Assembly: GCA_017398335.1 (NCBI GenBank)
Contig: JAFQGK010000066.1
Span: 1 to 42,770 of the forward strand
Origin: Bacteroidales bacterium
GTDB taxonomy: Bacteria > Bacteroidota > Bacteroidia > Bacteroidales > UBA932
Reading direction: 5' to 3'
DNA: 42,770 bases
Below are positions 3,978-8,592 of this stretch, piece after piece (the stretch's first letter is position 1; every line of letters starts with the position of its first letter). Made by a program: the position numbers and the translations under genes. The notes below the pieces were generated by a model that did not search any database, had not been told where the DNA came from, and saw only the letters and a list, made by a program, of their open reading frames with translations.

Positions 3978-3998
3978 ATTCCCGATCAGGTCGGGAAT
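3978..3998. repeat. Intergenic palindrome, copy 1
   Basis: ATTCCCGA (3978-3985) and TCGGGAAT (3991-3998) form a perfect 8-bp inverted repeat around TCAGG, followed by GACG. Close relatives lie at 5246-5266, 5312-5332, 14147-14166 and 39767-39785, all between genes. This marks a dispersed REP- or MITE-like element. Confidence 0.75.
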
Positions 3999-4095
3999 GA
4001 CGATACCGATGTTCCGAACGATCAGGGAATGATGATACCGATGTTCTGAACAATCAGGGAATGACGATACCGATGTTCCGAACGATCAGGGAATG
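3983..4095. repeat. Tandem 32-bp repeat derived from the palindrome
   Basis: A unit beginning CGATCAGG and ending GTTCCGAA is repeated head to tail. The first copy has 36 bases (3983-4018), then come two 32-base copies (4019-4050 and 4051-4082) with a few substitutions, then a 13-base partial copy (4083-4095). There are no spacers between copies. The array fills the gap between the leader terminator and the carA start, so copy number would change the leader length. Confidence 0.85.
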
Positions 4096-4130: not shown

Positions 4131-5240
4131 ATGAAACTTAAAGCAACACTTCGTCTTGAGAATGGCCTGGAATTCAAAGGCTATTCGTTTGGCGACACTC
4201 AGGCTGTGAGCGGAGAAGTGGTCTTCAACACTTCGATGGTCGGTTATCCTGAGCAGTTGACCGATCCGACCTACAGTGGTCAGATTCTCTGTCTGACTTA
4301 TCCGTTGATCGGTAATTATGGCGTCCCGTCGGAAGAACTCGCGGCTGAATCCCTGTCAAAGAATCTGGAGTCAGAAAGAATTCACCCAAAGGGTCTTGTG
4401 ATTTTCGATTATTGCGAGGATTACAGCAACTGGGAAGCCGTGAAGGGACTCGAGCAGTGGATGAAGGAACAGGGACTTACCGGTATATATGGAATCGATA
4501 CCCGCGAGCTGACAAAGGTGTTGCGTGATAAAGGTGCTATGAAGGGAATGATAATCCCTGAAGGTGCTGCCGAGCCAATGCCGGCTGTAAAGGCTGCTCC
4601 TGCTGACGTATGCTGCAAGGAACCGATAGTCTATAAGGCACAACCTGCTCAGAATGTGGAGAATATAAACGGAAGCAAGGCTGCTGTCACAGCAGGCAAG
4701 CGCGTAGTGCTCGTGGACTGCGGTGCGAAGCATAGCATCATAAGAGGCCTTATAACAAGGGGAGCGGAGGTTGTAAGAGTTCCTTATGACTATGACTTCA
4801 CAACCCTTGAATATGACGGAATATATGTTTCCAACGGCCCTGGATGTCCTTGCGACTGTGAGAAGACAGTAGAGAATCTGAAGAAGGCTCTTGAAGGCAA
4901 TAAGCCTGTTTTCGGTCTGGGACTCGGATATCATCTTATTGCAAAGGCTGCAGGTTGTGAGATGCAGAAACTTCAGCACCCGCACAGAGGAGCAAATCAG
5001 CCTGTACGCAGGGAAGGAAGTAATCGTACATATATTACAGCTCAGAATGTATGCAGAACCATAAAGCCTGCATCCATTCCAGCTGACTGGGAAGTGTTCT
5101 TCACCAATCTCAATGACGGTGCGGTAGACGGCATCCGTCATAAGACCAAGCCGTTTGCAGGTACACAGTTCAATCCTGAGGTGTGCGTCGGACTCACGGA
5201 GAACGTAACTCCAATCGATGAATTTATAACTAAATTATAA
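4131..5240 (+). CDS. carA: Carbamoyl-phosphate synthase small subunit, glutaminase residues lost
   Basis: CarA normally hydrolyses glutamine and passes ammonia to CarB for arginine and pyrimidine synthesis. The 369 residues have the usual length and order: an N-terminal CPSase domain (GEVVFNTSMVGYPEQLTDPTYSGQ and IYGIDTRELTK) and a C-terminal class I amidotransferase domain. The catalytic elbow, normally GxCLGHQ, reads GLGLGYH, so the nucleophile Cys is Gly264 (codon 4920-4922). The SQNHG segment reads AQNVC, and the catalytic HPE reads NPE (Asn348, codon 5172-5174). Only the Glu remains. Flanking family motifs (NGPG, HRG-N-PV, NLNDG, G-RHK) are kept, and the frame is intact. It therefore looks like a maintained but glutaminase-inactive subunit. 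Loss of the Cys also marks ammonia-dependent vertebrate CPS I. carB follows after 115 bases. Confidence 0.93.
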   Translation: MKLKATLRLENGLEFKGYSFGDTQAVSGEVVFNTSMVGYPEQLTDPTYSGQILCLTYPLIGNYGVPSEELAAESLSKNLESERIHPKGLVIFDYCEDYSNWEAVKGLEQWMKEQGLTGIYGIDTRELTKVLRDKGAMKGMIIPEGAAEPMPAVKAAPADVCCKEPIVYKAQPAQNVENINGSKAAVTAGKRVVLVDCGAKHSIIRGLITRGAEVVRVPYDYDFTTLEYDGIYVSNGPGCPCDCEKTVENLKKALEGNKPVFGLGLGYHLIAKAAGCEMQKLQHPHRGANQPVRREGSNRTYITAQNVCRTIKPASIPADWEVFFTNLNDGAVDGIRHKTKPFAGTQFNPEVCVGLTENVTPIDEFITKL

Positions 5241-5245
5241 ATGAG

Positions 5246-5266
5246 ATCCCCGATCAAGTCGGGGAT
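5246..5266. repeat. Intergenic palindrome, copy 2 (carA-carB gap)
   Basis: ATCCCCGA (5246-5253) pairs with TCGGGGAT (5259-5266) around TCAAG, followed by GACG. It differs from copy 1 by compensating changes in both arms, which keeps the hairpin. Confidence 0.75.
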
Positions 5267-5311
5267 GACGACAGTAAAAGTCCAGTCAACAGGTACTTAT
5301 ATCGATACGTC

Positions 5312-5355: not shown

Positions 5356-8300
5356 ATGATTGACAACAGCATAAAGAAAGTCCTCGTGCTCGGTTCGGGA
5401 GCACTCAAGATCGGTCAGGCCGGAGAGTTTGACTATTCAGGATCACAGGCCCTTAAAGCCCTCAGAGAGGAAGGCATCGAGACCATCCTCATCAATCCGA
5501 ATATTGCAACAGTCCAGACATCTGAACAGGTTGCAGACAAGGTATACTTCCTCCCTGTGACAGCATACTTTGTAGAGAAGGTGATCCAGAAGGAAGCTCC
5601 TCAGGGAATCCTTCTTGCCTTCGGTGGTCAGACAGCGCTGAACTGCGGTGTAGCCCTGTATGAGGCAGGAATCCTAGAGAAATATAACGTGAAGGTGCTC
5701 GGTACTCCGGTTCAGGCGATCATGGACACTGAGGACCGTGAATTCTTCAACGCAAAGCTGGCTGAAATCAACGTGAAGACCATCAAGTCACACGCTGTAG
5801 AGACTGTCGAGGCCGCAAAGGAGGCCGCAAATGAGCTCGGATATCCGGTCATCGTCCGTGCTGCATATGCTCTTGGAGGCCTTGGTTCCGGATTCTGTAA
5901 TAACGAAGAAGAACTTGTGACTCTTTGTGAAAGTTCATTCTCATTCTCACCTCAGGTACTCGTCGAGAAGTCACTCAAGGGATGGAAGGAGATCGAATAT
6001 GAAGTGATGCGCGACCGTTATGACAACTGCATCGCCATCTGTAACATGGAGAACTTCGACCCTCTCGGAATCCATACCGGTGAGTCTATCGTTGTCGCTC
6101 CGACCCAGACCCTCAGTGCGAAGGAATGTCAGTTCCTGCACGATCTGGCAATCAAGATGGTACGTCATATCGGCATTGTCGGTGAGTGTAATGTCCAGTA
6201 TGCATACGACACTGACTCAATGGAGTATTATGTGATCGAGATGAACGCCCGTCTCAGCCGCTCATCGGCTCTCGCTTCAAAAGCTACCGGTTTCCCGATC
6301 GCATTCGTTGCTGCAAAGATTGGTCTCGGATACGGACTCTTTGACATAAAGAACTCAGTGACCAAGCAGACTCCTGCATTCTTCGAACCTGCCCTGGACT
6401 ATGTTGTTGCTAAGATCCCACGCTGGGACCTCTCTAAGTTCACCGGCGTATCCCGCAAGATCGGCTCAAGCATGAAGTCTGTGGGTGAGGTTATGTCTCT
6501 CGGACGTAACTTCGAGGAGATCATCCAGAAGGGTCTTCGTATGATCGGTCAGGGTGCAAACGGATTCGTTGGTAACAAGGACATTAAGGTTGATGACATC
6601 GACACAGCTCTTAACGAGCCTACAGACAACCGTATCTTTGTCATCTCTAAGGCTATGCAGGCCGGTTATACAGTGGATCAGATTCATGATCTTACCAAGA
6701 TCGACAAGTGGTTCCTCAATAAGCTCCAGGGCATCGTGAACACTCACAAGGAGATGAGAAAGTACGACAACTGCGAGCAGATGCCGCTTGAACTCCTCAA
6801 GAAGGCCAAGGTTCAGGGCTTCTCTGACGTACAGGTTGCAAATGCATTGTATAAGGGAATGGACAGCGAGATGGCAGAGGACATCGTCCGCGCATTCCGT
6901 AAGTCTAAAGGCATTGTGCCATGCGTTAAGCAGATCGATACCCTCGCAGCAGACTATCCTGCAGCAACAAACTACCTTTATCTGACATATGGCGGTAACT
7001 TCCACGATGTGAAGTACCAGCACGACAAGAACTCTGTGATTGTACTCGGATCGGGTGCTTACCGTATCGGTAGCTCGGTGGAGTTCGACTGGTGTTCTGT
7101 AAACGCTCTTCAGACAATCCGCAATCAGGGATATAGGGGAGTAATGATCAATTACAACCCTGAGACAGTCTCTACTGACTACGATATGTGTGACCGTCTC
7201 TATTTTGATGAGCTTACATTCGAGCGTGTAATGGATATTCATGACCTCGAGAATCCGCATGGAACAGTGGTTTCAGTGGGAGGTCAGATTCCTAACAACC
7301 TTGCACTCCGTCTTGATCAGAATAAGGTGAATATTCTCGGAACAAGAGCGACATCCATCGATAAGGCAGAGGACCGTCACAAGTTCTCGTCTATCGTTGA
7401 TGCCCTCGGTATCGACCAGCCTAAGTGGAAGGAACTTACAAACTTTGACGAGGTTGACCAGTTCATCGAGCAGGTAGGTTTCCCTGTACTCGTCCGTCCT
7501 TCATATGTACTCTCTGGTGCAGCGATGAACGTATGCTACAACCACGAGGAACTCCGTAACTTCCTTGGTCTCGCAGCGGAAGTGTCTGAGAAACATCCAG
7601 TTGTAATGTCTGAATTCATGCAGCGCTGCAAGGAGATCGAGTTCGATGCCGTAGCTGACGGAGGTGAAGTGATTGCCTATGCAATTTCCGAGCATGTGGA
7701 GTTTGCCGGAGTCCACTCCGGTGATGCTACAATTCAGTTCCCTCCACAGAAACTTTATGTAGAGACAGTACGCCGCATCAAGAAGATTGCAAAGAAGATT
7801 GCTTCTGCCCTTGAGATTACAGGACCATTCAATATCCAGTTCCTTGCGAAGGACAACTATATCAAGGTTATCGAGTGTAACCTTCGTGCTTCACGAAGCT
7901 TCCCATTCGTATCCAAGGTGCTTCAGATCAATCTTATCGAGCTTGCAACCAAGGCCATGCTCGGCCTGAAGCCGGCAGCGCCACGCAAGTCTGCCTTTGA
8001 CCTTGACTATGTAGGAATCAAGTCTTCGCAGTTCTCATTCTCACGTCTCCAGCAGGCTGACCCTGTACTTGGAGTGGATATGCACTCTACCGGCGAGGTT
8101 GGATGTCTTGGCGATGACTTCAACGAGGCTCTTCTCAATTCGATGCTGTCGGTAGGTTATGAGATCCCTAAGAAGAACATTCTTGTCTCATCCGGAAATG
8201 CTCTTCAGAAGGCTGATCTTCTCAATGCATGCCATCTTCTCCATGAAAAGGGTTACAATCTTTATGCGACTGAAGGTTCATGCAGATACCTGAATGAGAA

Positions 8301-8592
8301 CGGAATCCCTGCAGAACGCGTAATCTGGCCTACAGAGGCTCAGAATCCGGAGCTGGCAGGTAAGTATAAGCAGGCTATGGATATGCTCGCAAACAAGGAA
8401 ATAGACCTCGTGATAAATATCCCTAAGAACTTCTCACATAGAGAGCTTACAAACGGATATCACGTTCGTCGTGCGGCTATCGACTTCAATATTCCGCTTA
8501 TCACGAATGCCCGTCTGGCAACTGCCTTCATCCGTGCATTCTGCGCAATGTCAATCGACGACATCCAGATCAAGAGCTGGGATCAGTATTGA
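5356..8592 (+). CDS. carB: Carbamoyl-phosphate synthase large subunit, CAD/CPS-I-like
   Basis: The 1078 residues hold two ATP-grasp halves: carboxyphosphate synthesis (about 1-400) and carbamate phosphorylation (about 550-930). Between them is an oligomerisation region, and at the C-terminus an MGS-like allosteric domain (about 940-1078). Motifs such as GSGALKIGQAGEFDYSGSQ, FGGQTALNCGV, YALGGLGSGF, KGWKEIEYEV, GECNVQYA, NARLSRSSALASKATG and KIPRWDLSKF follow the animal CAD and CPS-I sequences as I remember them. The E. coli CarB wording differs (for example GAGPIVIGQACEFDYSG). Both ATP sites look complete, so it should make carbamoyl phosphate if given ammonia. The partner CarA next door lacks glutaminase residues. 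A strong terminator follows. Confidence 0.97.
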   Translation: MIDNSIKKVLVLGSGALKIGQAGEFDYSGSQALKALREEGIETILINPNIATVQTSEQVADKVYFLPVTAYFVEKVIQKEAPQGILLAFGGQTALNCGVALYEAGILEKYNVKVLGTPVQAIMDTEDREFFNAKLAEINVKTIKSHAVETVEAAKEAANELGYPVIVRAAYALGGLGSGFCNNEEELVTLCESSFSFSPQVLVEKSLKGWKEIEYEVMRDRYDNCIAICNMENFDPLGIHTGESIVVAPTQTLSAKECQFLHDLAIKMVRHIGIVGECNVQYAYDTDSMEYYVIEMNARLSRSSALASKATGFPIAFVAAKIGLGYGLFDIKNSVTKQTPAFFEPALDYVVAKIPRWDLSKFTGVSRKIGSSMKSVGEVMSLGRNFEEIIQKGLRMIGQGANGFVGNKDIKVDDIDTALNEPTDNRIFVISKAMQAGYTVDQIHDLTKIDKWFLNKLQGIVNTHKEMRKYDNCEQMPLELLKKAKVQGFSDVQVANALYKGMDSEMAEDIVRAFRKSKGIVPCVKQIDTLAADYPAATNYLYLTYGGNFHDVKYQHDKNSVIVLGSGAYRIGSSVEFDWCSVNALQTIRNQGYRGVMINYNPETVSTDYDMCDRLYFDELTFERVMDIHDLENPHGTVVSVGGQIPNNLALRLDQNKVNILGTRATSIDKAEDRHKFSSIVDALGIDQPKWKELTNFDEVDQFIEQVGFPVLVRPSYVLSGAAMNVCYNHEELRNFLGLAAEVSEKHPVVMSEFMQRCKEIEFDAVADGGEVIAYAISEHVEFAGVHSGDATIQFPPQKLYVETVRRIKKIAKKIASALEITGPFNIQFLAKDNYIKVIECNLRASRSFPFVSKVLQINLIELATKAMLGLKPAAPRKSAFDLDYVGIKSSQFSFSRLQQADPVLGVDMHSTGEVGCLGDDFNEALLNSMLSVGYEIPKKNILVSSGNALQKADLLNACHLLHEKGYNLYATEGSCRYLNENGIPAERVIWPTEAQNPELAGKYKQAMDMLANKEIDLVINIPKNFSHRELTNGYHVRRAAIDFNIPLITNARLATAFIRAFCAMSIDDIQIKSWDQY

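Follow-up and report, generated by a model that had tools for sequence, protein, structure and literature searches.

Loss of the glutaminase residues from CarA in a gut clade of Bacteroidales, and a probable ammonia-dependent carbamoyl-phosphate synthetase

In a review, glutamine as the physiological nitrogen donor is extended to all bacterial carbamoyl-phosphate synthetases (CPSases), and Cys-269 and His-353 are given as essential residues of Escherichia coli CarA (PMC6245113). The DNA analyzed here, a 42,770-nucleotide stretch from a Bacteroidales bacterium (hereafter the window), carries a carA gene beside carB in which the counterparts of both residues are replaced. From where, then, does this CPS obtain its nitrogen, and why is its small subunit still there?

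The carA gene and the clade that shares its altered site

The product of the open carA frame scored 345 bits against TIGR01368, the profile of the glutamine-hydrolysing CPS small subunit, which is above the cutoff of 307. When the protein was aligned to E. coli CarA and to the chains of human CPS1, Gly264, Val307, and Asn348 fell opposite the nucleophile-elbow Cys, the QNHG His (which we take to be E. coli CarA position 312), and the residue before PE, respectively. The elbow Gln is replaced as well, by His268, and Glu350 (GAG, 5178-5180) is retained. The protein thus lacks the Cys and the His expected of a CarA glutaminase, and it does have the adjacent carB expected of a CarA (Table 1). An earlier, sequence-only reading of this DNA had described an intact frame, a preserved family scaffold, and these three replacements, and had argued that GGA is two changes away from a Cys codon; profile score, alignment, and codons bore out each of these points.

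Judging from Pfam matches in the window, carA and carB share it with core genes, among them presumably lptD, dnaA, ftsH, ispG, relA/spoT, and ligA. Three copies of a 39-nt repeat with 32-nt spacing lie upstream of carA (3993-4095), and the spacer that separates carA from carB contains a 24-nt motif related to it (5248-5271).

Table 1. Positions of the features discussed; coordinates are those of the window unless a contig is named.
Feature	Position	Strand	Remarks
carA, CPS small subunit	4131..5240	+	369 aa, open frame
Interdomain CarA linker, residues 145-190	4563..4700	+	longer in clade: 46-51 residues (20 clade) versus 30-35 (36 others)
Cys239 and Cys241 (GPGCxC), clade gains	4845..4853	+	19/20 and 18/20 clade, 0/36 others
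Gly264 (GGA) where nucleophile Cys expected	4920..4922	+	alignment and DNA codon
Tyr267 and His268 of elbow	4929..4934	+	20/20 and 18/20 clade; Gln at 268 in 36 others
Cys276, clade gain	4956..4958	+	19/20 clade; Ala or Gly in 36 others
Val307 (GTA) where His of QNHG expected	5049..5051	+	alignment and DNA codon
Asn348 (AAT) where His of HPE expected	5172..5174	+	alignment and DNA codon
Cys352 (PEVC), clade gain	5184..5186	+	20/20 clade; 1/35 others
carB, large synthetase subunit	5356..8592	+	1078 aa, intact; TIGR01369 1507 bits, cutoff 1027
CarB residues 1-403, carboxyphosphate domain	5356..6564	+	rich in clade-specific changes
GuaA (GMP synthase), 435 aa, window genome	contig C3, L126:457-1764	-	whole ATPPase domain; GATase part ends near elbow

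In 400 genomes of the window genus, we found 20 CarA proteins, that of the window included, at 68 to 100% identity to the window protein, and the next match was at 57% or less. These 20 proteins, hereafter the clade, are all encoded by open frames and all carry Gly264, for which GGA is used in nine, GGC in six, and GGT in five. The QNHG His is lost from every one of them (Val in 17, Thr in two, Ala in one), and the HPE His from 19 (Asn in nine, Ala in seven, and Thr, Ser, and Asp in one each), with His present in L039. Active sites were surveyed within Bacteroidales, and the comparison set comprised 36 other CarA proteins, of which the genus supplied 21 and other Bacteroidales families 15. Neither the Cys nor the QNHG His is missing from any of the 36, and all 35 proteins that include the HPE stretch have its His. 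Going by these residues, the known glutaminase chemistry of clade CarA is gone.

When named genomes were scanned, 21 loci were obtained, of which 19 belong to the clade; 17 of these are from genomes already counted, and two further named MAGs, L106 and L107, also carry Gly at the Cys position. The named clade records come from several MAG series (RGIG, SIG, cow4.3, and SRR14411304). Of the 19 clade record titles, 16 give the host (goat, sheep, water buffalo, roe deer, water deer, or cow), and 15 of these 16 name the cecum, colon, or rectum as the site. The record L107 is titled "Clostridia bacterium" and has the clade carAB, its CarB portion showing 98.8% identity across 416 residues; it is probably mis-binned or mis-named.

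The finding of Cys-to-Gly in 20 genomes and two more named MAGs from several series, together with the synonymous turnover of the Gly264 codon, ruled out a sequencing or assembly error. Two suggestions of the sequence-only reading, namely, that the changes are not one sequencing error and that the loss might be clade-wide, were upheld in this way, and the alignment of Bacteroidales CarA homologues that it had called for separated 20 proteins without the Cys from 36 with it.

In the CarA tree, from which the fragment L016 was omitted, the 20 clade proteins form a single group (SH-aLRT 100) placed with the genus and apart from the 15 rows from other families. An origin of clade CarA outside the genus is unsupported by this tree. 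In the CarB tree, 18 clade rows group with a support of 98, and the single distant outgroup means that their placement inside the genus is not given. The CarB analyses omit L058 and L070, whose contigs are without CarB; the partial rows L062, L074, and L091 were used for identities, clade changes, and trees and were excluded from dN/dS. These groupings point to one origin of the Cys loss. The branch leading to the clade measures 1.07 changes per site in CarA and 0.17 in CarB.

GMP synthase and the wider use of glutamine

The GuaA of the window genome has an elbow that reads PVMAAGH, in which Gly stands opposite the Cys in an alignment to E. coli GMP synthetase, and it is without the stretch bearing the later His and Glu. 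Of the 20 clade genomes, 18 contributed a truncated GuaA of this kind to the alignment, as did G032 and G063, both of which are among the 138 of the 400 genus genomes that gave no CarA match at E 1e-3. All 15 control genomes, whose CarA is intact, have a long GuaA frame; five of these frames were judged full length by alignment and 10 by frame length. Across the 400 genomes, the 435-aa type was found in 39, including 18 with the dead CarA, 20 without a CarA match, and G397, which has another CarA. The association between truncated GuaA and dead CarA has a p value of about 1e-18, uncorrected for shared ancestry. Dozens of genus genomes have a GuaA of about 330 aa that consists of the ATPPase alone and is 66 to 77% identical to clade GuaA; among the 14 loci read (L234 to L247), it lies beside a full-length GuaA in two, L239 and L246.

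CTP synthase, searched for with PF06418, was found in one of the 20 clade genomes (G367) versus 14 of the 15 controls. PurL was read at 30 loci, 16 belonging to the 20 clade genomes, and has the motif ICNGFQ at every one; ECGV stands near the start of PurF in seven of the 10 clade loci read (two stretches are too short, and L197 is another protein). A glutamine synthetase match of about 725 to 800 aa was obtained from 18 of the 20 clade genomes. A general loss of glutamine use was ruled out by the glutaminase residues of PurL and PurF together with glutamine synthetase. The window genome itself has two matches resembling glutamine synthetase, one of 794 aa and a second in a 501-aa frame (L155).

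The carbamoyltransferase domain PF02729 is present in all 20 clade genomes, 14 of which have two copies. Both copies read in the window genome are candidate users of carbamoyl phosphate. From their translations, we take the first to be pyrB-like with a pyrI-like neighbor and the second to be argF-like, between argB-like and argD-like genes.

An ammonia-dependent CPS and its alternatives

We consider it probable, with a rough probability of 0.7, that clade CarAB is a two-subunit ammonia-dependent CPS whose CarA persists as a pseudo-glutaminase with a structural or regulatory role, a case of convergence with vertebrate CPS I. Ammonia is plentiful in the ruminant gut, and E. coli CarA in which Cys269 was changed to Gly reportedly kept its ammonia activity. 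In such an enzyme, free gut ammonia would reach the carboxyphosphate site of CarB directly, and CarA would be retained because CarB needs it for assembly, tunnel shielding, or regulation. In favor of ammonia dependence, clade CarA is under selection, it is the sole CarA found in 18 of the 20 genomes, the adjoining carB is intact, candidate users of carbamoyl phosphate are present in the window genome, and GMP synthase has likewise been deprived of its glutaminase part in the clade genomes. Several observations count against it: 20 relatives with truncated GuaA have no CarA match, which fits decay; second CarA copies occur in G367, where all three residues are present, and in G415, where the Cys is; and PurL and PurF still look glutamine dependent, so that glutamine use was not abandoned. 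A further point against it is that the review regards the use of ammonia by E. coli CPS as likely physiologically irrelevant (PMC6245113). For that reason, a better ammonia affinity would be expected of clade CarB, and domain-biased changes in that subunit could reflect it.

Such a bias was seen in CarB. Among sites conserved in intact CarB, we found 48 clade-fixed changes, 33 of which fall within residues 1-403, a region holding 335 of the 771 conserved sites (Fisher p of 2e-4 for enrichment). A control split among intact CarB proteins placed seven of 27 changes there (p of 4e-4 versus the clade). At stricter thresholds, the comparison was 18/29 versus 6/17 (p of 0.07) or 17/25 versus 6/17 (p of 0.04), and when the intact set was halved and the clade compared with one half at a time, 31 of 54 and 41 of 86 changes were in residues 1-403. 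The domain bias is suggestive, given one control split and the weaker signal at strict thresholds; the changes in this ammonia-accepting domain may represent an adaptation to direct ammonia use.

The patterns of substitution bear on the most serious alternative, namely, that ammonia is so plentiful that CarA is dispensable and heading to loss, with CarB alone making carbamoyl phosphate. Clade pairs with CarB 96 to 97% identical (47 of 153 pairs) have a mean CarA identity of 78.9%, and intact pairs reach a similar CarA mean, 78.4%, at CarB identities of 75 to 80% (37 of 190 pairs). The median ratio of CarA dN to CarB dN over all pairs is 6.2 in the clade versus 1.05 in intact relatives, and this roughly sixfold faster change of CarA is what decay predicts, as is the absence of a CarA match from 20 of the 39 genomes with truncated GuaA. 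Nevertheless, Nei-Gojobori dN/dS is about 0.08 for CarA and 0.025 for CarB in the clade (31 of 120 pairs unsaturated), compared with 0.030 and 0.027, respectively, in intact relatives (nine of 171 pairs unsaturated). From dN/dS and the dN ratio, it follows that CarA is less constrained than normal yet clearly selected; the purifying selection on it is relaxed and still evident. All 20 genomes have an open carA frame, Gly264, Tyr267, and Cys352 are invariant and the other gained residues nearly so, and carA stays next to carB in the clade loci that hold both. We regard decay as unlikely.

That a normal glutaminase was missed, or that a second CarA elsewhere does the work, is an explanation to which we give very little weight. 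The clade genomes are MAGs of 69 to 95% completeness, which leaves room for it, and second, divergent copies of CarA were indeed found in two of them. That of G367 has all three catalytic residues; that of G415 (L134:4873-5931) keeps the Cys and QNHG, has QPD in place of HPE and a shortened C terminus, and perhaps represents a separate loss. These extra copies share at best 66 to 67% identity with the CarA proteins compared and 46 to 51% with clade CarA. They are perhaps contamination; their contigs do not stand out in base composition. In the other 18 clade genomes, a single PF00988 protein was found, and the search for a second carA that the sequence-only reading had proposed gave none by this profile in the window genome (86% complete). 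With PF00117, the class-I GATase profile, 17 of the 20 genomes yielded only CarA and a partial match in the GuaA of about 435 aa, G090 yielded CarA alone, and G415 and G367 yielded more. The earlier suggestion on the nitrogen donor thus fared unevenly. Ammonia from solution, with a structural or regulatory CarA, is the best-supported reading, and supply by another amidotransferase found no backing, since the PF00117 proteins of the window genome are only CarA and a GuaA without the elbow Cys. PurL and PurF have intact glutaminase sites; they belong to their own enzymes, which counts against their feeding CarB.

Clade CarA has newly conserved residues and does not show decay alone (Table 1); His283, found in 17 of the 20 proteins, is another. 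Hydrolysis of glutamine or another amide in a rebuilt pocket, restored by one of the new cysteines at 239, 241, and 352 together with His268 or His283, would account for this conservation, and it is the least probable of the alternatives, because none of the gained Cys residues sits on the nucleophile elbow, the Gln of the elbow has been lost, the former catalytic His position varies among Asn, Ala, Thr, Ser, Asp, and His, and L048, the earliest branch of the clade, is without Cys239 and Cys241. Ammonia dependence could also be extended to the gained residues. From the fixed Gly264, Tyr267, and Cys352 and the nearly fixed Cys239, Cys241, Cys276, and His268, we tentatively raise a further idea, itself rather doubtful: the pocket may have been rebuilt to admit or sense free ammonia, or as a redox or metal site for it, and may have evolved in step with the CarB domain that accepts ammonia. 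The lineage would then have switched both CPS and GMP synthase, two enzymes of nucleotide synthesis, away from glutamine and onto free ammonia.

Comparison with known enzymes

Human CPS1 is the best PDB match for both window subunits, with 287 bits versus 210 for E. coli CarAB in the case of CarA and 1195 versus 789 in that of CarB. Vertebrate CPS I (human CPS1; PDB 5dot and 6uel), a liver enzyme that runs on free ammonia, and the clade enzyme both keep a dead glutaminase domain. At the Cys position, human CPS1 has Ser294, and a separate ammonia entry has been proposed for it in the human CPS1 paper (PMC4655335); clade CarA has Gly264 there, and the elbow Gln is changed in both. Human CPS1 keeps QNHG and HPE, whereas clade CarA has lost both His residues. 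CPS I is one fused chain, activated by N-acetylglutamate and working in the urea cycle; the clade CPS is bacterial and consists of two subunits encoded by two frames, so that it shares with CPS I the Cys loss on a kept scaffold and differs from it in lacking the fused chain. According to the same paper, frog CPS I keeps the triad, and Cys loss is thus not strictly defining for CPS I (PMC4655335).

E. coli CarAB (PDB 1a9x and 1bxr) likewise consists of two subunits with the same domains, encoded by adjacent genes, and differs in using glutamine as donor through the two residues, essential according to the review (PMC6245113), that clade CarA has lost. Clade GuaA is comparable to the archaeal two-subunit GMP synthase, whose ATPPase unit can use external ammonia, as stated in a paper on it (PMC10526850). 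The archaeal enzyme has a separate GATase subunit, whereas PF00117 revealed none beyond CarA and the GuaA remnant in 17 of the 20 clade genomes.

All CPS types other than CPS1 use glutamine according to the human CPS1 paper (PMC4655335). Our literature search, whose coverage left most subscription journals outside, returned no report of a natural bacterial CarA without the Cys or of a truncated GuaA. If ammonia dependence is correct, a dead glutaminase fixed in a bacterial clade would break the glutamine-donor rule for bacterial CPS, and it would offer a simple two-subunit system for asking why CPS I retains its dead glutaminase domain. The paired losses in CPS and GMP synthase suggest that glutamine channeling in nucleotide synthesis can be relaxed in a gut rich in ammonia. 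A naming error also comes to light, as NCBIfam profiles pass both the window CarA and the truncated GuaA as glutamine-hydrolysing enzymes.
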